Virus record (IMG/VR): IMGVR_UViG_3300037502_001048 | Span: 1-23,735 of that record | Origin: a virus | DNA length: 23,735 nucleotides | Strand: one strand, 5' to 3' | Shown here: positions 583 through 23,591 of the stretch, one piece after another | Layout of the letters: every line of letters starts with the position of its first letter | How positions within the stretch are numbered: the stretch's first letter is position 1 | Program-made: the position numbers and the translations under genes | Notes under the pieces: model-generated | Database searches by the model: none | The model's input: the letters and a program-made list of their open reading frames with translations, nothing else | What the model was told of the DNA's origin: nothing

Positions 583-594
583 TAGACTGCGAGC
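583..594 (+). promoter_or_regulatory. Leaderless -10 promoter for the ParB-like gene
   Basis: TAGACT at 583-588 is followed by 6 nt and the ATG at 595. No Shine-Dalgarno sequence precedes the ATG and no good -35 box lies 16-18 bp upstream. The same TAGACT plus 6 nt arrangement occurs before the gene at 22887. Inferred to give an mRNA that starts at or within a base of the start codon. Confidence 0.5.
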
Positions 595-1146
595 ATGAGC
601 ACCACCGAGCACATCGCTGAGGATCTGCGACCGCTCGCACAGCCGATCGACCTGCTCAAGCTCCTACCAGGCAACCCGAGGCGAGGCGATGTTGAGGCAG
701 TGATGCGCAGCTACGACCGCTTCGGGCAGCGCAAGCCGATCGTGGCGAGGCGTGACGGGACGGTCATCGCGGGGAATCATCAACTGCAGGCAGCGCAACG
801 CCTCGGCTGGTCGCACATCGCCGTGGTGTGGACGGACGACGATGACCTGACTGCGAAGGCGTTTGCACTTGCTGACAACCGGACCGCTGACCTCGGCGCG
901 TATGACGATGACGATCTGCGTGCGCTCATTGAGTCCGTGGCGATTGACCCGAACTTGCTTGCTGCAGCGAGTTATTCGCTCGATGATCTGCTGGACGACG
1001 CCAACGACATTATTGGCAATGGTGATTCTGTAGACATTGGAGAGCGATACGAGGTCGTCATTGAATGTGCAACTGAGTTAGAGCAAGAGGCTTTGTTGCT
1101 TAGGTTTAGTAATGAGGGCCTCAAAGTCAGAGCCATAGTTGTATGA
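595..1146 (+). CDS. ParB/sulfiredoxin-fold nuclease-like protein of the DNA-modification block
   Basis: A 183-residue protein with a ParB/Srx domain in its first ~110 residues. The LLPGNPRRGDVEAVMRSYDRFG segment (24-44) resembles the ParB N-terminal strand and helix; KPIVARRDGTVIAGNHQLQAAQRLGW (47-72) matches the core motif, with GNHQ replacing the GERR-type box of chromosomal ParB; ALADNRTADLGAYDDDDL (91-108) is typical of phage ParB-like proteins. No HTH or CTP-dependent partition partner is visible, so chromosome partition is unlikely. Phage ParB-fold proteins of this type often sit beside DNA methylases or modification enzymes and may bind or nick DNA. The tail (about 150-183, RYEVVIECATELEQEALLLR onward) looks like a separate small alpha/beta module, and base composition drops in AT-richer direction from about residue 138. 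The stop overlaps the next ATG (ATGA at 1143), suggesting translational coupling to the ABC-GNAT gene. Confidence 0.75.
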   Translation: MSTTEHIAEDLRPLAQPIDLLKLLPGNPRRGDVEAVMRSYDRFGQRKPIVARRDGTVIAGNHQLQAAQRLGWSHIAVVWTDDDDLTAKAFALADNRTADLGAYDDDDLRALIESVAIDPNLLAAASYSLDDLLDDANDIIGNGDSVDIGERYEVVIECATELEQEALLLRFSNEGLKVRAIVV

Positions 1147-4097: not shown

Positions 4098-4110
4098 TAG
4101 CCTGGCAGGG
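4098..4110 (+). promoter_or_regulatory. Leaderless -10 promoter for the DNA methyltransferase
   Basis: TAGCCT at 4098-4103 is followed by 7 nt and the ATG at 4111. GGCAGGG (4104-4110) touches the ATG and is too close to act as a Shine-Dalgarno site. No convincing -35 box is seen. The arrangement matches other operon-head genes in this window. Confidence 0.45.
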
Positions 4111-5448
4111 ATGAGCACCACCAACCGCATCCTCCACGGCGACTGCCGACAGATGCTCCGCACCCTCGCCGACTGCTCGGTCGACTCGATCGTCACCGAC
4201 CCGCCGTACGAGCTGGGGTTCATGGGCAAGCACTGGGATGCCTCGGGCATCGCCTACAGCGTCGACATGTGGCGCCAATGCCTGCGGGTGTTGAAGCCTG
4301 GCGGTCACCTGCTGGCGTTCGGCGGCACCCGCACCTACCACCGCATGGCCGTCGCGATCGAAGACGCCGGGTTCGAGGTGCGCGACAGCATCCATTGGCT
4401 GTACGGCTCCGGGTTCCCGAAGTCGCTCAACGTCGCCATCGCCATAGACAAGGAGGCGGGGGCGATGGGCCACCGAGGCACGCGTGCCTCGGTGGCTGGC
4501 AACATTCGACAGGGGCAAAACGTCAAGCCCGCCAAAGCCATGCCAGCCCACGAGCCAGTGACCGACGCCGCCAAGCAATGGTCCGGCTGGGGCACGGCAC
4601 TCAAACCGGCACACGAACCGATCGTCGTCGCCCGCAAGCCGCTCGTCGGCACCGTGGCGCAGAACGTGCTGCAGCACGGCACCGGGGCAATCAACATCGA
4701 CGGGGGACGGGTTGCCGTCGGTGATGCTGAGGCTGCGGCTCGTGCCAGTTGGTCGGAGCGTTACGGAATGAACCATTACGCGACCGGCAACGTCTATGGC
4801 GGCGGGCAAGGGCTTGACAAGACGATGACCGGCGCAGGATTCAACGCCACCGGCCGCTGGCCCGCCAACATCGTCCTCACCCACGCCGTTGACTGCGCCG
4901 ACACCTGTGCCGCAGACTGCCCGGTCGCCGAACTGGACCGGCAGAGCGGCACGCTGACCAGCGGAGCGAACCCGACCCGCAGGAACAGCGACAAGTTCCG
5001 CAACGCGTACGGCGACTTCGTCGGACAGACCGAGTGCACGCCTGCCCGTGGCATCGACACCGGTGGCGCGTCCCGGTTCTTCACCGTCACCGAGTGGGAC
5101 CCGATCACCGACGTCCCGTTCCGCTACGTCGCCAAGCCTGGCAAGACAGAGCGGAACGCAGGGCTAGGTGCCAACTTCCACCCCACCGTCAAGCCGGTCG
5201 ACCTCATGCGCTGGCTCGTCAGGCTCGTCACGCCACCCGGCGGCACCGTCCTCGACCCGTTCCTCGGCTCCGGCACTACCGCCGTCGCAGCGATCCTCGA
5301 AGGCTTCGACTGGGTCGGCTGCGAACTGACCGACGACTACCTGCCGATCATCGAAGGGCGAGTTGCCTGGGCGCAGCACAGAGTCGGCTATGTGGCCCCG
5401 ACTCGGGTGACCTCATCCGAGCCTGACCAACTGGAGTTGTTCTCGTGA
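4111..5448 (+). CDS. DNA N6-adenine/N4-cytosine methyltransferase, beta type
   Basis: A 445-residue S-adenosylmethionine-dependent DNA methylase. The catalytic motif IV is TDPPYELGFMGKHWD (D30-P-P-Y33), the next conserved block LRVLKPGGHLLAFGGTRTYHRM lies at about 69-90, and the AdoMet-binding motif I region HPTVKPVDLMRWL...VLDPFLGSGTTAVAA is near 358-395. Having DPPY before FLGSGTT makes this a circularly permuted beta-class enzyme, which methylates the exocyclic amine of A or C, not the C5 position. Residues ~100-340 contain a long target-recognition region with the common phage-methylase phrases GTALKPAHEPIVVARKPL and GTGAINIDGGRV. No restriction enzyme gene adjoins it, so it is probably an orphan methylase that protects or marks phage DNA. 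The first codons ATGAGCACCACC match several other leaderless genes. The stop overlaps the GTG of the next gene. Confidence 0.9.
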   Translation: MSTTNRILHGDCRQMLRTLADCSVDSIVTDPPYELGFMGKHWDASGIAYSVDMWRQCLRVLKPGGHLLAFGGTRTYHRMAVAIEDAGFEVRDSIHWLYGSGFPKSLNVAIAIDKEAGAMGHRGTRASVAGNIRQGQNVKPAKAMPAHEPVTDAAKQWSGWGTALKPAHEPIVVARKPLVGTVAQNVLQHGTGAINIDGGRVAVGDAEAAARASWSERYGMNHYATGNVYGGGQGLDKTMTGAGFNATGRWPANIVLTHAVDCADTCAADCPVAELDRQSGTLTSGANPTRRNSDKFRNAYGDFVGQTECTPARGIDTGGASRFFTVTEWDPITDVPFRYVAKPGKTERNAGLGANFHPTVKPVDLMRWLVRLVTPPGGTVLDPFLGSGTTAVAAILEGFDWVGCELTDDYLPIIEGRVAWAQHRVGYVAPTRVTSSEPDQLELFS

Positions 5449-5729
5449 TCTGGCTGCTCGTCGCTCTCGCCACCTATCGCCTGACGCGCCTCGTCACGAC
5501 CGACACGCTGACCGCTCCGGCGCGTGAGTGGGTGCAGGCTCGCTACGACCGGGTCGGCTACCTCGTCGGCTGCGACTGGTGCTCGTCAATGTGGCTCGCT
5601 CCCGGTCCGGTGCTGCTCGGCGTGCTCGCTCCCGACTCGACGTGGACGCTGGTGCTGCTCGGCATCCCTGCTGCCTCGGCTGTCGTCGGGATCATGGCGA
5701 CGCTCGTCGGACGCTGGGAAGATTCCTAG
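5445..5729 (+). CDS. DUF1360-like small membrane protein
   Basis: A 94-residue protein starting at a GTG that overlaps the methylase TGA (GTGA). The N-terminus IWLLVALATYRLTRLVTTDT and the central GCDWCSSMWLAP motif (about 42-53) are characteristic of the DUF1360 family, which occurs in phages and Firmicutes/Actinobacteria and has no established function. Two hydrophobic stretches (about 50-63 and 68-87) are predicted membrane helices; the first 10 residues may form a third, short one. The CxxC pair could form a disulfide or bind metal. Its stop codon TAG (5727-5729) lies inside the upstream element of the first cassette promoter, so the two features overlap. Confidence 0.65.
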   Translation: MIWLLVALATYRLTRLVTTDTLTAPAREWVQARYDRVGYLVGCDWCSSMWLAPGPVLLGVLAPDSTWTLVLLGIPAASAVVGIMATLVGRWEDS

Positions 5730-5784
5730 AGATTCTTTGCGCTAGACGTAGACAACTACGACCGGAGTCGCTAAGATTCTCCAC
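5721..5784 (+). promoter_or_regulatory. Cassette promoter copy A, with operator-like palindrome and upstream element
   Basis: Upstream 20-bp element GATTCCTAGAGATTCTTTGC at 5721-5740 (two GATTC words 10 bp apart), 8 nt, -35 box TAGACA at 5749-5754, 17-bp spacer, -10 box TAAGAT at 5772-5777, then 7 nt to the ATG at 5785. The spacer contains CGAC-CGGA-GTCG (5759-5770), an inverted repeat that could be an operator. There is no Shine-Dalgarno site; transcription is predicted to start at the ATG. Three further copies are at 10608, 21929 and 22488. Confidence 0.85.
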
Positions 5785-6075
5785 ATGAGCAACGCCACCA
5801 CACTCCAGCACATCGGCCGCATGAACGTCCTCGCCATCTCGGGCGGTCGGGTGCAGGTCATCGACGAGACCACGATCAGCTTGCCGGTTCACTACGGCTA
5901 CTCGGTCGAGATCAAGCTCAACGAGGCACAAGACCTCTACGAGGTGCGGCGCATCTTCCGCCGTGGCACCAAGCGGTGGATCAAGGGCGAGCAGCTCGGC
6001 GTCTACTGCGACGAGGTCGGCGAGATCGCCTACCGGGCAAGCTGCTACCTCGACGAGTTCGGCGGCGAGTCGTGA
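5785..6075 (+). CDS. Cassette A gene 1, small hypothetical protein
   Basis: A 96-residue protein I do not recognise. It begins MSNATTLQHIG, then shows alternating hydrophobic and charged residues suggesting a small beta-rich fold (NVLAISGGRVQVI, YSVEIKL, LYEVRRIFRRGTKRWI, GVYCDEVGEIAYRASCYLDEF). The Y-x-V-R-R-I-F-R-R-G-x-K-R-W stretch (about 53-65) is strongly basic and the C-terminus acidic. No signal peptide or membrane segment. It is predicted to be translated from a leaderless mRNA and is coupled by a GTGA overlap to the next gene. Nothing in the sequence gives a biochemical role; its promoter groups it with the small genes at 10666, 21993 and 22552. Confidence 0.75.
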   Translation: MSNATTLQHIGRMNVLAISGGRVQVIDETTISLPVHYGYSVEIKLNEAQDLYEVRRIFRRGTKRWIKGEQLGVYCDEVGEIAYRASCYLDEFGGES

Positions 6076-6299
6076 GCCGGACCGTTCCGCTCGACGTGCT
6101 CGTCCGCTGCGATCAGAACCGCCTGTTCGGCTGCGGAGCGACGTGCTACGTCCCTGCCATCCTGCTCAAGCTCTACGGCTCCGACCTCATCAAGGTAGTC
6201 GGCGGTGGCGAGTGCTCTCGCTGCAGCCTGCCGCTCGCCGTCTGCCGTGACGCTCGAGCGACAGAGCGTGCGCTCTATGAGGAGCGCGTCAAGGCGTAA
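6072..6299 (+). CDS. Cassette A gene 2, small Cys-rich (possible zinc-binding) protein
   Basis: The GTG at 6072 overlaps the TGA of the preceding gene (GTGA), giving 75 residues; longer in-frame starts upstream would lie inside gene 1 and are rejected. The protein begins MSRTVPLDVLVRC and has six cysteines in two clusters, CDQNRLFGCGATC (about 13-25) and CSRCSLPLAVC (about 48-58). This spacing suggests a zinc-ribbon-like or disulfide-linked fold. The C-terminus is a charged helix. Not recognised as a named family. The same GTGA arrangement is seen in cassettes B and C. A hairpin at 6342-6376 lies 42 nt downstream and may end the unit. Confidence 0.65.
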   Translation: MSRTVPLDVLVRCDQNRLFGCGATCYVPAILLKLYGSDLIKVVGGGECSRCSLPLAVCRDARATERALYEERVKA

Positions 6300-6874: not shown

Positions 6875-6887
6875 TAGGCTAGCGACC
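6875..6887 (+). promoter_or_regulatory. Leaderless -10 promoter for the portal operon
   Basis: TAGGCT at 6875-6880 is followed by 7 nt and the GTG at 6888. No Shine-Dalgarno site. It follows the hairpin at 6820-6861 directly, giving a terminator-promoter boundary between transcription units. Confidence 0.5.
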
Positions 6888-9755
6888 GTGGCGCGCAGAC
6901 GACATGAGCAGGCACCGGCGTGGAACTCGCTGATTGCCGCAGCCGAGATCATGACGGCCCCGTCGATGCCGCTGCGAGCCATCGCCCACCGCACCGAAGC
7001 ATGGCAGCAAGCAGCGTGGGACTACTACGACTCGGTCGGAGAGCTGCGCTTCGCCTCGCAGTGGATCAGCAACGCCGTGTCAAGGGTCAACCTTGTCGCC
7101 GCTGCACCGGCAACCGGACCGGGTGACGAGCCGACACCTATTGCTCAGGACGACTTCGAGTTCACTGCCGGGCAGCGTCGTGCCGCCGAGATCGTCGCAC
7201 AGATCGCAGGCGGCTCCGGAGGGCAGGGCCAGATGCTCGGGTCGTTCGGTGTCCATCTGACCATCGCCGGGATCGGCTGGCTGGTCGCTGAACCACCGAT
7301 CGACGACCCGCTTGCCGACGAGTTCACCTCGTGGAACGTCTACAGCTCCGAGGAGATCCGCACCACCTCTGACGGCGTGGTCGAGGTCCGGGTGAGCTAT
7401 CGAGAGTGGCGACCGCTGCACCCGAATAGCGTCGTCGTGAAAGCGTGGCGCAGGCACCCGAGGTGGAGCTATCAGCCGGACGCTCCTACTCGTGGCGTGC
7501 TCGGCGTGCTGCGCGAGATCGAACTGCTCCAGCAGCACATTCACGCGTCGGCGCAGTCCCGGCTCGCTGGTGCTGGCATTCTGACCATCCCGAGCGAGGC
7601 AGTGTTCCCGCCCGGGCAGGGACCGCAGTCGTCATTCGAGGACGTCCTCGCTCAGAATCAGAACGTCACAGCACCTGAGGACTCGTTCGTTGACACTCTC
7701 GTCGACTCGATGACGGTCCCGATCACGGACCGTTCGTCGGCTGCTGCCGTGGTGCCGCTGGTGATCCGCATTCCTGGCGAGTTCGTCGACAAGGTCCGGC
7801 ACCTGACGTTCGCAACGCCGTTCGATGATCGGGTGCTGAGCCTGATGGAGTCCGCCATCCGTCGTCTGGCGCTCGGTCTCGACATCCCGCCCGAGATCCT
7901 CACCGGCGTCGCTGGGATGAATCACTGGTGCGTGCCTGTCGAGCATCCCATCCTCACCGCTGAAGGCTGGAAGCACGTTGATGACCTGGCGCTCGGTGAG
8001 CGCATCGCCACGATGAACACGACGACGGGCGCTCTGGAGTTCCTCCCGGTCCAGCACATCTACCGTGCACAGGTCGAGGCTGAGCCGATGCTGGAGGTCA
8101 CTCTCGTCGGTCAAGGCGGGCACATGTCGAAGGTGTCAATGACGCAGGGTCACCGGAACGTGGTCCAACGTGACGGCACATGGACAATCGTCACCGCCGA
8201 TGAGCTGCGTGAGGGCGACGTGATCCCGACCGCTGCGCCTGCTCGTGACTTCCCGACCGAGCCGAAGTGGTCTGACTCGTTCGTGCAGTTGGTCGCCTGG
8301 TACTCGGCAGACGGCACGCTGACCAAGCAGAACGGCAAGCCCGGCCAGATTCGCATCGCCAAGTCGTGGAAGGTGAACCCGCACCTCGTCGGCAAGATGA
8401 CCGCTCTACTTACCGAGACCTTCGGACCGGCGTCAGAGACCATGCCGCAGGGCGCAGTCGAGCCGATGTGGCGCATGGAGATGCAGGAACGAGGCATGGC
8501 GGTCGCCGTGCTGAATGCTGCTGCTCGGAACATGCTGCTCGCCGTGATGCCTGGTCACGAGAAGGTCGTGCCTCGCTGGTTCGTGGAGTCGCTCACAGAG
8601 GCACAGACGCACCTGTTCCTCGCTGCATGGGCTGAGTCTGACGGCGTTAGCTCTGGCGGCGAGTGGAAGGGCGTCATCGAGCAGTCCAACCCTGACCGGC
8701 TCGACGCCATTGAACTCGCAGCACTTCGTGCCGGGTACTCGGTGCGTCGCTGGTCGGAATCGCTCGTCGGCGCAACGGAGCACGGCAGGTTCTCGGACCG
8801 TCCGATGCACTGCCTGCGAGTCGGCAAGATGACCTATCGCACGGTGCGCGCCATCGAGCAGGTCGCCTACACGGGCGAGGTGTGGTGCCCGACGACCGCC
8901 AACGGGACGTGGATCACGCAGACGGATCGTGGCTGGTCGATGGTCACCGGCAACTCGGCATGGCAGGTCGAAGAGCAGGCGATCACGCTGCACATCGAGC
9001 CACTGTCCGAGGTGATCTGCCACGCCCTCACCATCGGCTTCCTGGCACCTGCTCTCGAGGCCGAGGGCATCGACCCGAGCGAGGCGATGGTCTGGTACGA
9101 CACCAGCGACCTGACCGCTCGCCCGGACAAGACCCGGCAGGCGATCGAGGCATACGACCGCAACGAGTTGAGCGGCGCTGCGATGCTGCGTGAGGTCGGG
9201 CTGAGCGTCGATGACATGCCGAGCGAGGAGGAGAAGCGTGAGCGCATCCTGCTCTCCGTCGCCCGGAGCGTGCCTGCGCTTGCACCGCCAATCCTTGCCG
9301 AGCTTGGCTTCATCGCCTCTGACGCCATCCCGGTCGAGGTCGAGGCTGCACCTGCTTCTGCTGCGCTCCCGGCAGTAGAACCGACGCAGGGACCACCCGA
9401 GACCGCAGTGCCCGGCGACGCCCTGACGGCTGCGTGCGACGTGCTTATGCACCGAGCGATGGAGCGTGCCGGTGCCCGACTCCGGTCGGCTGCAGGCAAG
9501 CGCACGCAGGGTGGTGCGGCAGCGATTCCGTGTGATGACCCGAGCCGCCTGCACTGCACCGTCGATGCGACCTCGTTCGCCGACCTCGGCTCACTGCTTG
9601 AGGGCGCGTGGGGCATCGTGCCGGACATCGCCCGGAGATGCCGTGTGGACCCGGACACGCTGACGCAAAGCCTCGACCGCTACGCGCGCGCCCTCCTGGC
9701 GACCGGCGAGCCGCACACTCACGAGAGACTCGCTCATGCTCTCGGAACCGCCTGA
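6888..9755 (+). CDS. Portal protein precursor containing an intein
   Basis: A 955-residue reading frame. The host protein is a phage portal (dodecameric ring at the capsid vertex): N-terminal WQQAAWDYYDSVGELRFASQWISNAVSRVNL (about 39-69), HIHASAQSRLAGAGILTIPSE, and DDRVLSLMESAIRRLALGLDIPPEILTGVAGMNHW just before the insertion. An in-frame intein occupies residues 348-689 (7929-8954). Its removal joins NHW to SAWQVEEQAITLHIEPLSEVI, restoring the conserved NHW-x-AWQVEE portal segment and leaving a 613-residue protein. The C-terminal ~200 residues are Ala/Pro-rich and helical, with a motif CDDPSRLHC. The 3' end overlaps the MuF gene by 20 nt. Portal identity rests on these motifs and position between terminase and MuF. 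Confidence 0.9.
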   Translation: MARRRHEQAPAWNSLIAAAEIMTAPSMPLRAIAHRTEAWQQAAWDYYDSVGELRFASQWISNAVSRVNLVAAAPATGPGDEPTPIAQDDFEFTAGQRRAAEIVAQIAGGSGGQGQMLGSFGVHLTIAGIGWLVAEPPIDDPLADEFTSWNVYSSEEIRTTSDGVVEVRVSYREWRPLHPNSVVVKAWRRHPRWSYQPDAPTRGVLGVLREIELLQQHIHASAQSRLAGAGILTIPSEAVFPPGQGPQSSFEDVLAQNQNVTAPEDSFVDTLVDSMTVPITDRSSAAAVVPLVIRIPGEFVDKVRHLTFATPFDDRVLSLMESAIRRLALGLDIPPEILTGVAGMNHWCVPVEHPILTAEGWKHVDDLALGERIATMNTTTGALEFLPVQHIYRAQVEAEPMLEVTLVGQGGHMSKVSMTQGHRNVVQRDGTWTIVTADELREGDVIPTAAPARDFPTEPKWSDSFVQLVAWYSADGTLTKQNGKPGQIRIAKSWKVNPHLVGKMTALLTETFGPASETMPQGAVEPMWRMEMQERGMAVAVLNAAARNMLLAVMPGHEKVVPRWFVESLTEAQTHLFLAAWAESDGVSSGGEWKGVIEQSNPDRLDAIELAALRAGYSVRRWSESLVGATEHGRFSDRPMHCLRVGKMTYRTVRAIEQVAYTGEVWCPTTANGTWITQTDRGWSMVTGNSAWQVEEQAITLHIEPLSEVICHALTIGFLAPALEAEGIDPSEAMVWYDTSDLTARPDKTRQAIEAYDRNELSGAAMLREVGLSVDDMPSEEEKRERILLSVARSVPALAPPILAELGFIASDAIPVEVEAAPASAALPAVEPTQGPPETAVPGDALTAACDVLMHRAMERAGARLRSAAGKRTQGGAAAIPCDDPSRLHCTVDATSFADLGSLLEGAWGIVPDIARRCRVDPDTLTQSLDRYARALLATGEPHTHERLAHALGTA
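7929..8954 (+). other. Intein with LAGLIDADG (DOD) homing endonuclease in the portal gene
   Basis: 342 residues. Block A starts at Cys1 (CVPVEHPILTAEGWKHVDDL). Block B is SMTQGHRNVV with the T-x-x-H pair. The two LAGLIDADG-type helices are LVAWYSADG (about intein residue 120) and LFLAAWAESDG (about 230). Blocks F/G are EVWCPTTANGTWITQTD and MVTGN, followed by Ser as the +1 extein residue. The penultimate residue is Gly rather than the usual His. Both splice junctions restore a conserved portal sequence. Known role: self-excision by protein splicing, with the endonuclease spreading the element into intein-free portal alleles. Confidence 0.93.
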
Positions 9756-10607: not shown

Positions 10608-10665
10608 GCAAAGAATCCCGAAGAATCGCTAGACAACTACGACAGCAGTCGCTAGTATTCATCAC
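10608..10665 (+). promoter_or_regulatory. Cassette promoter copy B, upstream element inverted
   Basis: GCAAAGAATCCCGAAGAATC at 10608-10627 is the reverse-complement orientation of the 20-bp element seen in copies A, C and D. It lies 2 nt (not 8) before the -35 box TAGACA (10630-10635). A 17-bp spacer with CGAC-AGCA-GTCG (10640-10651) leads to the -10 box TAGTAT (10653-10658), followed by 7 nt and the ATG at 10666. No Shine-Dalgarno site; a leaderless mRNA is predicted. Confidence 0.82.
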
Positions 10666-10923
10666 ATGAGCACCACCCACACCCACACCGACCTTCTCGA
10701 CCTCGCCGACGACTTCGCCGAGCGCATCCGAGCCATTCAGGCCAAGGAGGTCGCCAGCGGCGACGACTTCGCCCTCATCGAGCAGTTGACCAGCGACGCC
10801 GGTCTCGTGATCCCCGAGGAGGACGTGGTCGTCTGGCTGCGGGTCTCGGACATGACCGTCGTCGTCTGGGGCGGCAACGAGTTCGACTACGACATGAACC
10901 GGCTCGCCGAGGTGCGGCTGTGA
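10666..10923 (+). CDS. Cassette B gene 1, small acidic hypothetical protein
   Basis: An 85-residue acidic protein starting MSTTHTHTDLLDLADDFAERI. The N-terminal half is helical (LLDLADDFAERIRAIQAKEV, DDFALIEQLTSDAG) and the C-terminal part has strands (DVVVWLRVSDMTVVVWGGNEFDYDMNRLAEVRL). No known motif, membrane segment or signal peptide. The first four codons ATGAGCACCACC match those of the ParB-like and methylase genes. It is coupled by GTGA overlap to the next gene. Function unknown. Confidence 0.75.
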   Translation: MSTTHTHTDLLDLADDFAERIRAIQAKEVASGDDFALIEQLTSDAGLVIPEEDVVVWLRVSDMTVVVWGGNEFDYDMNRLAEVRL

Positions 10924-11120
10924 GGCCGCAGCACAACCTCCGCAGCCACCACTACTACGCTCCGACCATGCTCGACCGCCTCGCTCGCAAGTGGGAGCAC
11001 GCTGGTCCACGCTGGCACCTGCGGATCGCTCTCGCTGTCCTGCTCGGCACGCTGCTCGCTACTGCTGCGCTCGACGAACCGACGTTCTACGACCCAGAGC
11101 CGACCGAGCAGACGCCCTAG
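10920..11120 (+). CDS. Cassette B gene 2, small membrane protein
   Basis: A 66-residue protein starting at the GTG (10920) that overlaps the TGA of gene 1. A His/Tyr-rich N-terminus (MRPQHNLRSHHYYAPTMLDRL) is followed by WEHAGPRWHLR, a single hydrophobic helix (IALAVLLGTLLATAAL, about 36-51) and an acidic Pro-rich end (DEPTFYDPEPTEQTP). This pattern suggests a single-pass membrane protein with cytoplasmic N-terminus. Function unknown; a role at the host membrane is possible but not shown. A strong hairpin starts 13 nt after the stop. Confidence 0.65.
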   Translation: MRPQHNLRSHHYYAPTMLDRLARKWEHAGPRWHLRIALAVLLGTLLATAALDEPTFYDPEPTEQTP

Positions 11121-11182: not shown

Positions 11183-11195
11183 TTAGCATCGGCTC
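11182..11195 (+). promoter_or_regulatory. Leaderless (extended -10) promoter for the protease-capsid operon
   Basis: TAGCAT at 11184-11189 is preceded at 11181-11183 by TGT (the TGn extended -10 motif) and followed by 6 nt and the ATG at 11196. It abuts the terminator hairpin of cassette B. No Shine-Dalgarno site. Confidence 0.5.
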
Positions 11196-13055
11196 ATGCC
11201 GTTCGGACCGTATGCCGACTTCGATGACTGCGTGGCGCAGAACGGCGACAAGTCGAATCCTGCTGCGTATTGCGCGGCAGTCGAAGAAGCAGCGAAGGGA
11301 GCGCAGGCGATGCGACGTGTGCGGATGGCTCTCACGCCAGTGACGCTGGCAGACGAGGACGGCGACGGCATCGACGACATCACCGGGCTTCCGGTGGAGA
11401 CCGAGGCTGAGGCTCCCGAGCCGATGATCGAGGAGGACGGCGAGGAGGGCGAGGACTTCCACGCGCTCGTCGTGGTCGAGGGCGTCTGGACCGGCGATGG
11501 TCGCTGGATCGAAGAGGGCGCGCTGACCTGGCGTGACCTGCCGCTGCCGCTCATGGCGACCGACCGCACGACCGAGGGTCACATGGACGCCGTGCTGATC
11601 GGGTCGTTTACCCGCATGGAGCGCATGGGCCGAGAGATTCACGGCTGGGGCAGGTTCGTGGAATCTGACGACGCAGACGTGATGCGCCTGCAAGACCTGA
11701 TTCGTAACGGCGACCTGCGGGGCATCTCCGCAGACTTGGACATGATGGAGTACGACGTCATCGTCCCGGCGTCGATGATGCCAGGCATGGAGGACGAGGA
11801 CGAGGACGAGCCGGAGATGGAGGAGGACGGCTCCGTTCGCATGAGCGCCGACGACTACAAGATGAAGGTCACGTCAGCCCGGATCATGGGAGCGACCGGC
11901 GTGCCATTTCCGGCGTTCGCTGAGGCGTACATCGAGGGCATGGCATCGCTCACGGCTGCGCTGATGACCGAATGTCGAGCGACGGGCGGGATGCTCGAGA
12001 CCTGGCAGAGCATGGACGGCATCGACTTCCAGCCGCCGCAGGGCGCACGCGAGGAGGCAGAGCGTGGTCTCGCGTGGCGTGAGGAGTTCGGCCGAGGCGG
12101 CACGGCGGTCGGCGTCGCTCGGGCGCGTGACATCGCCAACGGTCGTAACCTGTCGCCGGACACCATCGGGCGCATGGTGTCCTACTTCGCCAGGCATGAG
12201 GTCGACAAGCAGGGCACCGGATGGTCCCCGGGCGAGGATGGCTTCCCGAGCGCCGGTCGCATCGCCTGGGCGCTGTGGGGCGGCGACCCTGGCCGGACCT
12301 GGGCCGAGAAGGTGCAGCGCCAGATGGCGAGCCGGAGAGAGCAGGGCAGCATCATCGCAGCCGGTCATCCCATCGAGCCGCCGCTGCTGCCGCCTGCGGA
12401 CTGGTTCGCCGATCCGAGACTGAGCCGTGCGACTCCGGTCACGGTCACGAACGACGGCAGGGTCTTCGGCCACGTCGCCGTGTGGGGTTCCTGCCACATC
12501 GGGTTCACCGACCAATGCGTGACGCCGCCTCGCTCGGCAACGAACTACGCGCACTTCCTGACCGGCGAGGTGCTCTGCGAGGACGGCTCGAGGGTCGCTG
12601 TCGGGCAGATCACGATGGACACCGGGCACGCGCCGATGAACGCCAACGCTCACCGAGCAGCAGCGCACTACGACCACACCGGCAGCGCAGTCGTGGACGT
12701 GACCGCAGGCGAGGATGCTCACGGCATCTGGATCGCCGGAGCACTCCGACCTGGCGTCGCTCCCGAGCAGATCAGGGCACTGATGGCGTCGGACGTGTCT
12801 GGCGACTGGCGTCGCATCGGCTCCGGTCTGGAGTTGGTCGCTGTGCTCGCTGTCAACGTGCCGGGCTTCGGCAAGGTCCGGGTCGGGATGCATGACGGTC
12901 TCGTCGCCTCGCTGGTCGCCTCGACCCATGTCGAGCCGGATGACCCCACTCGGCGCATCGTCGCTCGCATCGCTGCGTCGATCGGCCGGACGCCGGAGCG
13001 CAGGCGTGAGGAGCTGGCTGCTCGGGTCGCTCGGCTTCGTGAGGCTGGTCTCTGA
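11196..13055 (+). CDS. Capsid maturation protease, three-part protein
   Basis: A 619-residue protein. Part 1: an N-terminal motif MPFGPYADFDDCVAQNGDKSNPAAYCAA (residues 1-28), with two Cys, then a prohead-protease domain with candidate catalytic His in TEGHMDAVLIGSFTRMERMG (about 126-145) and Ser in DLRGISADLD (about 170-179), as in HK97-type serine proteases. Part 2 (about 280-375): RGLAWREEFGRGG, VGVARARDIANGRNLSPDTIGRM, SYFARHEVDKQG, IAWALWGGDPGRTWAEK, a small domain found in various phage head proteins. Part 3 (about 390-590): PPADWFADPRLSRATPVTV, GRVFGHVAVWGSCHIGF, VGQITMDTGHAPMNA and SGDWRRIGSGLELVAVLAVNVPGF, typical of actinophage proteins next to the capsid gene. It is inferred to cleave the capsid N-terminal delta region. 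An acidic linker (EDEDEDEPEMEEDG) splits the protease domain. Confidence 0.82.
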   Translation: MPFGPYADFDDCVAQNGDKSNPAAYCAAVEEAAKGAQAMRRVRMALTPVTLADEDGDGIDDITGLPVETEAEAPEPMIEEDGEEGEDFHALVVVEGVWTGDGRWIEEGALTWRDLPLPLMATDRTTEGHMDAVLIGSFTRMERMGREIHGWGRFVESDDADVMRLQDLIRNGDLRGISADLDMMEYDVIVPASMMPGMEDEDEDEPEMEEDGSVRMSADDYKMKVTSARIMGATGVPFPAFAEAYIEGMASLTAALMTECRATGGMLETWQSMDGIDFQPPQGAREEAERGLAWREEFGRGGTAVGVARARDIANGRNLSPDTIGRMVSYFARHEVDKQGTGWSPGEDGFPSAGRIAWALWGGDPGRTWAEKVQRQMASRREQGSIIAAGHPIEPPLLPPADWFADPRLSRATPVTVTNDGRVFGHVAVWGSCHIGFTDQCVTPPRSATNYAHFLTGEVLCEDGSRVAVGQITMDTGHAPMNANAHRAAAHYDHTGSAVVDVTAGEDAHGIWIAGALRPGVAPEQIRALMASDVSGDWRRIGSGLELVAVLAVNVPGFGKVRVGMHDGLVASLVASTHVEPDDPTRRIVARIAASIGRTPERRREELAARVARLREAGL

Positions 13056-21928: not shown

Positions 21929-21992
21929 GATTCTTAGAGATTCTTTGCCTTAGTGCTAGACATGTGCGACCGGAGTCGCTAGTATGTCCACC
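21929..21992 (+). promoter_or_regulatory. Cassette promoter copy C
   Basis: GATTCTTAGAGATTCTTTGC at 21929-21948, 8 nt, -35 TAGACA at 21957-21962, 17-bp spacer with CGAC-CGGA-GTCG (21967-21978), -10 TAGTAT at 21980-21985 and 7 nt to the ATG at 21993. An ATG at 21984 lies inside the -10 box and is not the start. No Shine-Dalgarno site. Confidence 0.87.
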
Positions 21993-22205
21993 ATGAGCGA
22001 CACCACGAACACCCTGACCGAGACCGAGACCATCATCCTGCACATGCTCCGCAACGGCGCACGCCTGAGCATCGCCCATATCCATAACCGGCTGATCGGT
22101 CGGGGCGACACGCACGAGGCGATCATGAGCCTACAGCGCAAGGGGCTGATGAAGGTCTCGCAGATGGGCTACCCAACGGCGTATATCCCGAGCGAGGCAA
22201 AGTGA
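21993..22205 (+). CDS. Cassette C gene 1, winged-helix-like protein, candidate regulator
   Basis: A 70-residue protein from the ATG 7 nt after the -10 box. It begins MSDTTNTLTETET; helix 1 IILHMLRNGA, helix 2 LSIAHIHNRLI, helix 3 DTHEAIMSLQRKGLM, then a beta-hairpin-like KVSQMGYPTAYIP. This is the order of a minimal winged helix DNA-binding domain. If so, it may bind the CGAC-N4-GTCG palindrome or the GATTC element in its own promoter. The family is not firmly recognised and the DNA target is inferred. It is GTGA-coupled to the next gene. Confidence 0.65.
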   Translation: MSDTTNTLTETETIILHMLRNGARLSIAHIHNRLIGRGDTHEAIMSLQRKGLMKVSQMGYPTAYIPSEAK

Positions 22206-22477
22206 GGCGCAGCGAGCGAGTCCGGCAGGCCATCGGGCAGGAGGTCTGGACGCTGCAGCACGGTCTCGCCGAGTTGGTCAGCGAGCGCACCGAGCACAAC
22301 GTGACCGTCAGCGTGTTCCGCTGCGCCTGGCTGGCTCGTCCGTACCTCTGGTACGTAGAGCGGTACGACAGGACCGGAGGCGTATCGCAGGAGATCTGGC
22401 TTCCCGAGCCGGAGGGCTTCGCCACCGCCGAGGCGTGCGCTGCGGATGCCTGGGCGCTCGTCAATCGCCCGGACTGA
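22202..22477 (+). CDS. Cassette C gene 2, small hypothetical protein
   Basis: A 91-residue protein starting at a GTG that overlaps the TGA of gene 1. It has a basic start (MRRSERVRQAIGQEVW) and segments LAELVSERTEHNVTVSVFRCAWLARPYLWYVERYDRTGG and EPEGFATAEACAADAWALVNRPD, which read as an alpha/beta domain with W/Y-rich strands. No motif is recognised. The end is 10 nt before the upstream element of cassette D. No terminator is visible between the two units. Confidence 0.65.
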   Translation: MRRSERVRQAIGQEVWTLQHGLAELVSERTEHNVTVSVFRCAWLARPYLWYVERYDRTGGVSQEIWLPEPEGFATAEACAADAWALVNRPD

Positions 22478-22487
22478 CTCTCGGGAA

Positions 22488-22551
22488 GATTCTTAGAGAT
22501 TCTTTGCCATAGGGGTAGACAATACGACTGGAGTCGTATATAGTTACCTAC
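22488..22551 (+). promoter_or_regulatory. Cassette promoter copy D
   Basis: GATTCTTAGAGATTCTTTGC at 22488-22507, 8 nt, -35 TAGACA at 22516-22521, 17-bp spacer with the longest palindrome (ATACGAC-TGGA-GTCGTAT, 22522-22539), -10 TATAGT at 22539-22544 and 7 nt to the ATG at 22552. No Shine-Dalgarno site. Confidence 0.87.
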
Positions 22552-22818
22552 ATGAACAACACCACCGCCACCGCCACCTACAACGCAGTCGCCGGATACG
22601 TCGAAGTCACCCTCTCGGACGGCACGATCCTCAAGAGCAAGAAGGGCAAGAACGCCGCCAAGGCTCTCTACCTCACTGTCACCTTCGGCACGAAGAGCAA
22701 CCCCAACTGGGCACCTCGCATCGATTCAATGCAGACCAGCCTGACCGGCATCCAGAATCGGGCTGCTCACCTCGCTGACTGCACCTACAACGTCGAGGTC
22801 GTCGAAGTCACTCGCTGA
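22552..22818 (+). CDS. Cassette D single gene, small hypothetical protein
   Basis: An 88-residue protein beginning MNNTTATATYNAVAGYVEVTLSD, then GTILKSKKGKNAAKALYLTVTFGTKSNPNWAPRIDS and NRAAHLADCTYNVEVVEVTR. The strand-rich opening and lysine-rich centre (KSKKGKNAAK) suggest a small beta domain that could bind nucleic acid; I do not recognise a family. Leaderless translation is predicted. It is followed 16 nt later by a hairpin with a T-run. Unlike the other cassettes it has only one gene. Confidence 0.7.
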   Translation: MNNTTATATYNAVAGYVEVTLSDGTILKSKKGKNAAKALYLTVTFGTKSNPNWAPRIDSMQTSLTGIQNRAAHLADCTYNVEVVEVTR

Positions 22819-22874: not shown

Positions 22875-22886
22875 TAGACTCGCCGC
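22875..22886 (+). promoter_or_regulatory. Leaderless -10 promoter for the connector operon
   Basis: TAGACT at 22875-22880 is followed by 6 nt and the ATG at 22887, identical in layout to the 595 gene. No Shine-Dalgarno site and no evident -35 box. Confidence 0.5.
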
Positions 22887-23591
22887 ATGACCTGCGACCC
22901 GTGGCCGATCCGGTGGGCGTGCGACATCGAGGACGTAGACCCGACGCTGCTCGCCCTGGCGCAGGATTCGGCCCAGTCGTTGCTCTGGAGCCTCACCGGC
23001 AGACGGTACGGAGTCTGCACGACCACTGAGTACTACCGGCCTCCGTGCGACTCGCCCTGCACGCAGCCATGGGTCAGGGAGTTCGGTCCTGGCGTCGACT
23101 GGCGCGTGAATCGAACCTACGGCTGGCTGCACGACTGCTGCCACCTGACATTGAGCCAGACGCCTGTGCGCGCCGTGCTCGAAGTCGAGGTGCTCGGCGA
23201 CGTTCTGCCCGAGACCGAGTACGCACTAGAGCTGGACCGGCTCATGCGGTATGGCGAGTGCTGGCCATGCGACGAGGGCTGCGACGACCCTCCCGTCAAG
23301 GTGACCTATATCTACGGCATCGACGTGCCTGCTCTCGGCGAGTTGGCAATGGGGGAGCTTGCCTGCGAGTTCCTCGCTGCGCTCACCGGAGCCGACTGCC
23401 GCCTGCCCTCCAACGCCATCAGCGTCACCCGGCAGGGCATCACCGTCGACCTCGGCGACCAGCAGACCCTCTTCGAGATGGGGCGTATCGGTCTGCCTAT
23501 CTCGGATGCGTTTATCCGCTCGGTGAACCCGAACAAGCTGCAGATGCAGAGCAAGGTCTGGACGCCTGACACGGCGAGGCGCGCACGATGA
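22887..23591 (+). CDS. Cys-rich head-to-tail adaptor
   Basis: A 234-residue protein. It begins MTCDPWPIRWACDIEDVDPTL, then ALAQDSAQSLLWSLTGRRYGVC (about 28-49), RPPCDSPC, HDCCHLTLSQTPVRAVLEVEV, GECWPCDEGCDDPPVKVTYIYGI and LPSNAISVTRQGITVDLGDQQTLFEMGRIGLPISDAFI. The DP-x-L-x-x-(L/A)-A...LW-x-L-(S/T)-GRR-(F/Y)-GVC pattern and RQG-(I/V)-x-(V/M)-x-(L/x) ending are typical of actinophage head-to-tail adaptors that bind under the portal. About 14 cysteines, many in CxxC or CC pairs, suggest disulfide or metal stabilisation. It starts its own operon with a leaderless promoter; its stop overlaps the next ATG (ATGA). Confidence 0.8.
   Translation: MTCDPWPIRWACDIEDVDPTLLALAQDSAQSLLWSLTGRRYGVCTTTEYYRPPCDSPCTQPWVREFGPGVDWRVNRTYGWLHDCCHLTLSQTPVRAVLEVEVLGDVLPETEYALELDRLMRYGECWPCDEGCDDPPVKVTYIYGIDVPALGELAMGELACEFLAALTGADCRLPSNAISVTRQGITVDLGDQQTLFEMGRIGLPISDAFIRSVNPNKLQMQSKVWTPDTARRAR

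Follow-up and report, generated by a model that had tools for sequence, protein, structure and literature searches.

Repeated promoter cassettes with predicted leaderless starts in a tailed-phage contig and its relatives

Four copies of a compact promoter cassette, in which a −35/−10 pair is followed almost immediately by an ATG, are present in the virus record IMGVR_UViG_3300037502_001048, and similar cassettes recur in related phages. The stretch analysed, referred to here as the window, is the entire IMG/VR record (23,735 bases, 65% GC). Leaderless transcription, with the mRNA beginning at the A of the ATG, is the best explanation of the window cassettes and of their relatives, with a probability of about 0.86 on the basis of sequence comparison. 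In each cassette, a housekeeping-sigma promoter would run directly into a start codon: the host RNA polymerase would recognise TAGACA or TTGACN together with TANNNT and initiate on the A of the ATG, 7–8 bases past the −10 box, so that the mRNA would be leaderless and begin with AUG at its 5′ end. The U-poor, CA-rich and unfolded first codons would leave this AUG exposed, the CA-rich stretch probably helping the ribosome to engage it, and in about half of the cassettes a second open reading frame (ORF), overlapping or abutting the first stop codon, might be reached by translational coupling. Between the −35 and −10 boxes lies a phage-specific motif, a clear palindrome in some phages, which may bind a regulator that switches all copies at once. 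The cassette appears to have been copied to many places within the phage group, ahead of unrelated small genes.

Architecture of the window cassettes

All four window cassettes have the structure GATTCTTnnnGATTCTTTGC–TAGACA–N17–TANNNT–N7–ATG, with the ATGs located at 5785, 10666, 21993 and 22552. The TAGACA hexamer, the 17-nucleotide (nt) spacer and the 7-nt gap between the −10 box and the ATG are constant in all copies. The upstream block GATTCTTnnnGATTCTTTGC has exactly four matches in the window, all of them at cassettes (0.01 expected), and is inverted in the second copy. An initial annotation of this DNA had proposed a 7-nt gap and the absence of a Shine-Dalgarno (SD) site in four copies; both observations are borne out, the gaps occupying 5778–5784, 10659–10665, 21986–21992 and 22545–22551, and no SD-like tetramer lies 4–16 nt upstream of any of the four ATGs. 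Its further suggestion, that these genes become independent of SD competition late in infection, finds no support in either part; as regards timing, the −35 and −10 boxes are ordinary housekeeping-type hexamers. For the third cassette, a mechanical ORF caller places the start at 21984, within the −10 box, and the cassette register places it at 21993. As the four copies are homologous, their equal spacings do not constitute four independent observations. The features are listed below (lengths of products in amino acids, aa; pLDDT, predicted local distance difference test).

5721..5740, + strand: cassette 1 upstream element GATTCCTAGAGATTCTTTGC, with a pair of GATTCyT units 10 bp apart; may be an UP element or a site for an activator
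5749..5754, + strand: cassette 1 −35 box TAGACA
5759..5770, + strand: cassette 1 dyad CGACCGGAGTCG, a candidate operator within the 17-nt spacer
5772..5777, + strand: cassette 1 −10 box TAAGAT
5778..5784, + strand: cassette 1 discriminator TCTCCAC, 7 nt, no SD, C at −1
5785..6075, + strand: cassette 1 ORF, 96 aa, predicted leaderless, CA-rich first codons; orthologue in contig L011 77% identical
6072..6299, + strand: cassette 1 operon second ORF, GTGA overlap
10608..10627, − strand: cassette 2 upstream element, reversed
10630..10635, + strand: cassette 2 −35 box TAGACA
10640..10651, + strand: cassette 2 dyad CGACAGCAGTCG
10653..10658, + strand: cassette 2 −10 box TAGTAT
10659..10665, + strand: cassette 2 discriminator TCATCAC, 7 nt
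10666..10923, + strand: cassette 2 ORF, 85 aa, predicted leaderless
10920..11120, + strand: cassette 2 operon second ORF, GTGA overlap
21929..21948, + strand: cassette 3 upstream element
21957..21962, + strand: cassette 3 −35 box TAGACA
21967..21978, + strand: cassette 3 dyad CGACCGGAGTCG
21980..21985, + strand: cassette 3 −10 box TAGTAT
21986..21992, + strand: cassette 3 discriminator GTCCACC, 7 nt
21993..22205, + strand: cassette 3 ORF, 70 aa, predicted winged helix, candidate regulator; pLDDT 86, MarR/ArsR-type folds, best E 3.4e-3
22202..22477, + strand: cassette 3 operon second ORF, GTGA overlap
22488..22507, + strand: cassette 4 upstream element
22516..22521, + strand: cassette 4 −35 box TAGACA
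22525..22536, + strand: cassette 4 dyad CGACTGGAGTCG, 7 bp of symmetry including flanks
22539..22544, + strand: cassette 4 −10 box TATAGT
22545..22551, + strand: cassette 4 discriminator TACCTAC, 7 nt
22552..22818, + strand: cassette 4 ORF, 88 aa, predicted leaderless

Recurrence of the arrangement in related phages

Related contigs were gathered by terminase and capsid searches, and cassettes were collected from them with a scan permitting gaps of 5–8 nt. In total, 49 cassettes were found across seven related phage contigs, the window (n = 4) included; the others are distributed among G002 (21), G006 (12), G007 (5), G014 (4), G013 (2) and L011 (also G001; 1), whilst none was seen in some related contigs, for instance G003. 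A 6-nt gap occurs in 30 cassettes and a 7-nt gap in the remaining 19, and in L011, the nearest relative of the window, the gap is 6 nt, or 8 nt if TATATA is counted as the −10 box. The exact 7-nt spacing put forward in the initial annotation is therefore valid within the window and not as a rule for the family, in which 6 and 7 nt both occur. A full −35/−10 pair with 16–18 nt spacing is present in every cassette, none of the 49 has an SD tetramer 4–16 nt upstream, and C directly precedes the ATG in 44. The spacers and upstream blocks are unlike between phages, as illustrated by CGTTCCGGGATCRTG in G002 and GCCGACTCGAGTCGGC in G007.

Additional examples of the cassette occur in L069 and L070, and an IMG/VR scan for the palindrome-type cassette yielded more, with the same 7-nt gap. 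L070 contains two near-identical cassettes (1930 and 11312) with a CCCGACACGGGTCGGGG dyad and a 6-nt gap, which were kept out of the counts given here on account of their −35 box, TTGCAA. An IMG/VR search with the upstream block alone retrieved mostly unrelated phages, the sole true relative being L011; this contig was also returned by a pattern search for TAGACA with the dyad, together with a spurious contig, L025, which was discarded. Comparison of cassette DNA with isolated phages gave nothing credible (best E 3–7).

These data bear on two other accounts of the gene starts. In the first, the genes would be read mainly from long upstream transcripts, the ATG being reached by coupling or by 70S scanning without an SD, with the −10-like box weak or unused. 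All four window cassettes are indeed codirectional and lie behind other ORFs of the structural region, from which some readthrough may come. However, the complete −35/−10 pairs in every copy and the occurrence of cassettes on both strands of G002, a 57.7-kb contig (the record of L056), make this account very improbable, and it offers no reason for the locked 6–7 nt gap and the C at −1. The second account proposes near-leaderless mRNAs that start 1–5 nt upstream of the A and carry a tiny leader. The choice of transcription start site (TSS) in bacteria varies by a base or two, and gaps of both 6 and 7 nt are found. Nevertheless, this is unlikely, as the base at −1 is C in 44 of 49 cassettes, a poor initiating base that mycobacteria prefer immediately before the TSS, and start codons at +2 to +5 appear to be less efficiently translated in mycobacteria (PMC4633059). 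Mycobacterial RNA polymerase favours C at −1 and a purine at +1 (PMC4633059, PMC6448022), so that transcription would be expected to start on the A of the ATG.

Leadered promoters and leaderless-type starts outside the cassettes

An internal control is provided by promoters of the same families that are followed by a leader. A scan with only the −35 to −10 part, counted after low-scoring matches had been removed by eye, placed an ATG 6–7 nt downstream of 42 of 49 promoters, the remaining seven having a longer gap; since the scan matrices were derived from the cassettes, the result is a fair test of the gap and not of promoter identity. Four of the seven longer-gap promoters drive recognisable ORFs after 20–41 nt, and clear SDs lie behind two of them, AAGGAG (G002 28392) and AGGAGA (G007 17519). 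The same alternation is seen among orthologues of a single gene, the one at 595 in the window: it is preceded by TAGACT-6-ATG in the window and TAGACT-7-ATG in L305, and in L060 by TAGACT and then a leader carrying AGGAGG. In an IMG/VR-wide scan with the pattern TTGAC-N16-20-TATACT-N0-30-ATGAGCAC, whose matches include unrelated phages, the gap from TATACT to ATGAGCAC was 6 nt in 18 among the 96 matches listed, with a second cluster among these at about 18–30 nt, often with an SD. Taken with the locked gap, the C at −1 and the absence of an SD from the cassettes, these leadered, SD-bearing members lend good comparative support to the proposal in the initial annotation that the mRNAs start on the A of the ATG, which is a prediction.

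In G002, promoter copies at 7776 (minus strand) and 11743 (plus strand) are followed by very similar leaders (GAGGACACCCCAAGGGGAAGCG...ATGCTCCCCACACCTACGAG) and short ORFs only; these leaders are perhaps a small RNA or leader element.

Leaderless-type starts also occur apart from the cassettes. In a blind count, a TANNNT ending 6–7 nt upstream was found at 11 of the 716 plus-strand ATG/GTG triplets in the window, and comparison with a list of about 29 window gene starts (two of them entered off register, with no effect on the hits) identified nine of the 11 as gene starts (hypergeometric p = 4e-12; 7e-7 without the four cassettes). It follows that such starts are not limited to the cassettes. 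Five more window genes, beginning at 595, 4111, 6888, 11196 and 22887, have the 6–7 nt arrangement with neither a cassette nor an SD:

583..597, + strand: TAGACT, 6 nt, ATG; gene 595-1146
4098..4113, + strand: TAGCCT, 7 nt, ATG; methyltransferase gene 4111-5448
6875..6890, + strand: TAGGCT, 7 nt, GTG; portal gene 6888-9755
11184..11198, + strand: TAGCAT, 6 nt, ATG; gene 11196-13055
22875..22889, + strand: TAGACT, 6 nt, ATG; gene 22887-23591

The initial annotation had assigned leaderless mRNAs to the four cassettes, all of which fit; the property is not special to them.

Composition of the first codons

When the first eight residues are excluded, the 49 cassette proteins include only three homologous pairs, two of which are the same genes in G007 and G013, and the four window proteins have no family match in Pfam or PHROGs. 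Despite this, the beginnings of their genes are alike. The A+C content of nt 4–18 is 0.78–0.88 in cassette genes versus 0.47–0.58 in SD-led genes of the same phages, T is nearly absent at nt 4–9 across all 49 cassettes, and the first 35 nt fold with a mean minimum free energy of −0.8 to −2.1 kcal/mol, as against −6 to −9.5 kcal/mol in SD-led genes. A U-poor, CA-rich and unfolded first 15 nt common to nearly unrelated proteins is a new observation. In Escherichia coli, leaderless translation is strongly stimulated by CA repeats that directly follow the start codon (Martin-Farmer and Janssen 1999, as cited in PMC9031893), and structure around the start codon is described there as inhibitory to it. 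The first codons of the cassettes match the sequence feature of these CA-repeat enhancers, and by this likeness may have a similar effect.

Operon layout and a gene gain or loss behind the promoter

In three window cassettes (1, 2 and 3), a second ORF begins in a GTGA overlap with the first stop codon, and in 27 of the 49 cassettes, a count uncorrected for background, the next ORF is 40 aa or longer and starts within about 10 nt of the stop. In G006 (the record of L062), a 13-codon ORF with a leaderless-type start (MTTTTKGQPQAAP; ATG 36880, minus strand) overlaps the start of a 425-aa ORF by ATGA, and may encode a leaderless leader peptide that serves translational coupling.

The terminase of L011 is 96% identical to that of the window, and L011 has the same cassette; next to it comes a 64-aa ORF, after which the orthologue of window ORF 1 begins with a GTG overlapping the preceding stop. 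The extra ORF implies that a gene was gained or lost exactly behind the promoter. This arrangement, with one promoter ahead of different ORFs in the two phages, would also be expected if the repeat served mainly as a recombination seam at which small genes are swapped, with a spacing constant only through recent duplication; the scarcity of homologous pairs among the cassette proteins and the first codons that the copies have in common point in the same direction. As a replacement for leaderless expression this explanation is nonetheless improbable. Phages with unrelated spacers and upstream blocks have the same 6–7 nt gap, C at −1 and CA-rich start, the repeat-free window genes show the same gap, and the repeat families include leadered, SD-bearing members. 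A role as a seam is, moreover, compatible with leaderless expression.

Spacer dyad and candidate regulator

The spacers of all four window cassettes carry CGACnnnAGTCG, and two further dyad matches in the window, at 9477 and 12803, are close to chance level. In G007 and G013 the spacers contain a perfect 16-bp palindrome, GCCGACTCGAGTCGGC. The spacer dyad is highly significant in these two contigs, and is also significant in one of the four window copies taken alone and in part of G014. A general palindrome across all spacers was considered and dropped, not being significant in G002 and G006. An operator between the −35 and −10 boxes is plausible for the palindrome-bearing phages. For the product of cassette 3 a small winged-helix fold is predicted, making it a candidate regulator. 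The leaderless reading could be extended by taking the spacer motif as the operator for this very protein, an addition favoured by the perfect palindrome, the CGACnnnAGTCG motif in every window copy and the predicted fold. It is, however, doubtful: G002 and G006 lack a significant palindrome, and no homologue of the cassette 3 protein was found in the relatives. A search for phage integrases found none in 20 records (the window and 19 related ones, many of them fragments), which leaves lysogenic repression without support, and a search for HTH_3 repressors gave sub-threshold matches only.

Points against leaderless expression

Several considerations count against the leaderless interpretation or parts of it. 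The copies within a phage are homologous, so that independent support comes from at most about six or seven phage lineages and not from 49 cassettes. The TSS may lie a base or two away from the A of the ATG. In G002 and G006 the case for an operator is weak, as the dyad is not significant there. In mycobacterial leaderless genes no sequence is enriched after the start codon, and the CA-rich tract is not found in them (PMC4633059); wobble usage in the Thr codons of the tract is not clearly different from that of gene bodies, and the tract could have been duplicated along with the repeat and not be under selection.

Implications

A broader hypothesis treats the cassette as a copyable phage unit, comprising a promoter, a regulator site, a 5′ AUG and a CA-rich enhancer, that can be duplicated before any small gene and would place SD-independent accessory genes under one phage-specific switch. 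This is offered tentatively. If true, the leaderless start would be a portable part, and a gene could gain expression by insertion downstream of a ready-made promoter, start codon and first codons. The dozens of natural promoters, leaderless and leadered in the same genome, represent a test set for efficient leaderless translation in actinobacteria, and for whether CA-rich first codons matter in this group, mycobacterial genes being without such a signal. Gene calling also benefits, because correct starts follow from the −10 box.

Gene content and host

The window encodes a tailed-phage packaging and structural gene set, including small and large terminase subunits, portal, a head protease region and the major capsid protein. 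Most isolated relatives of the capsid (identity <60%) belong to phages that infect Mycobacterium, Gordonia, Microbacterium and other actinobacteria, and because of these protein relatives an actinobacterial host is likely. A terminase search of bacterial genomes returned only distant relatives, from other phyla.

The portal gene (6888-9755) contains an in-frame insert at about 7926-8956 with Cys as its first residue and Asn, before a Ser, as its last (junctions GMNHW|CVPVEHPILTAEGW...VTGN|SAWQVEEQ), whilst the L011 gene is uninterrupted (GMNHWGAWQVEEQ). These termini and its absence from L011 make the insert look like an intein; no Pfam match was obtained at E 0.001. Upstream lie a Tet/JBP-like oxygenase below the Pfam cut-off (1-582), a product with a weak ParB_N-like match (595-1146), an ABC-ATPase/GNAT fusion (1143-2258) and a DNA methyltransferase (4111-5448), a cluster (1-2258 and 4111-5448) suggestive of DNA hypermodification.

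Comparison with known systems

Leaderless genes of Actinobacteria have a TANNNT about 12 bp upstream of the start codon (Zheng et al., PMC3160421), and roughly a quarter of Mycobacterium smegmatis transcripts are leaderless (PMC3160421, PMC4633059, PMC6448022). In position of the TANNNT, C at −1 and lack of an SD, all four window cassettes resemble these genes; they differ in sharing a CA-rich tract across unrelated genes, whereas the mycobacterial ones have no downstream enriched sequence.

Among phages, the cluster O mycobacteriophages, such as Corndog, have three predicted leaderless promoters, PL1, PR2 and PL2, the last of which also heads a small gene inside the structural operon, as the window cassettes do (PMC4351075). 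These promoters do not form a repeated cassette, the 17-bp dyad repeats of cluster O lie mostly away from promoters, and shared CA-rich first codons are not reported in the portions of that account drawn on here. The same source provides a comparison with the stoperators of cluster A, the repressor sites of L5, which are likewise a short regulatory repeat scattered through one phage genome. Stoperators are asymmetric, oriented with transcription, silencing and mostly outside promoters, whereas the cassettes are promoters fixed to start codons, the upstream repeat and promoters of the window occurring only at four gene starts.

The closest repeated promoters are the ESAS elements of cluster K phages such as Adephagia, present in seven copies as a SigA-like promoter of 46–47 bp that includes an imperfect inverted repeat and has 17–18 bp spacing, accompanied by a second repeated element (SAS) at the start codon (PMC11373665). 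Both systems are repeated SigA promoters with an inverted repeat, the cassettes having a 17-nt spacer and CGACnnnAGTCG. Cluster K genes are, however, leadered, with the ESAS about 50 bp upstream and an SD-like GATAGGAG within the SAS, whereas the cassettes have no SD; the Adephagia SAS was seen at L307, and no cassette has an SAS of the GATAGGAG type 3–9 bp before its start codon. In two ESAS copies compared, the inverted repeat spans the −35 and −10 boxes, whilst the arms of the cassette repeat lie inside the spacer. No report of repetition, leaderless starts and a CA-rich tract together was found in the open-access literature, which does not show that none exists. Leaderless actinophage promoters and repeated SigA promoters are each known already; the cassettes combine repetition with predicted leaderless starts and a common CA-rich tract.
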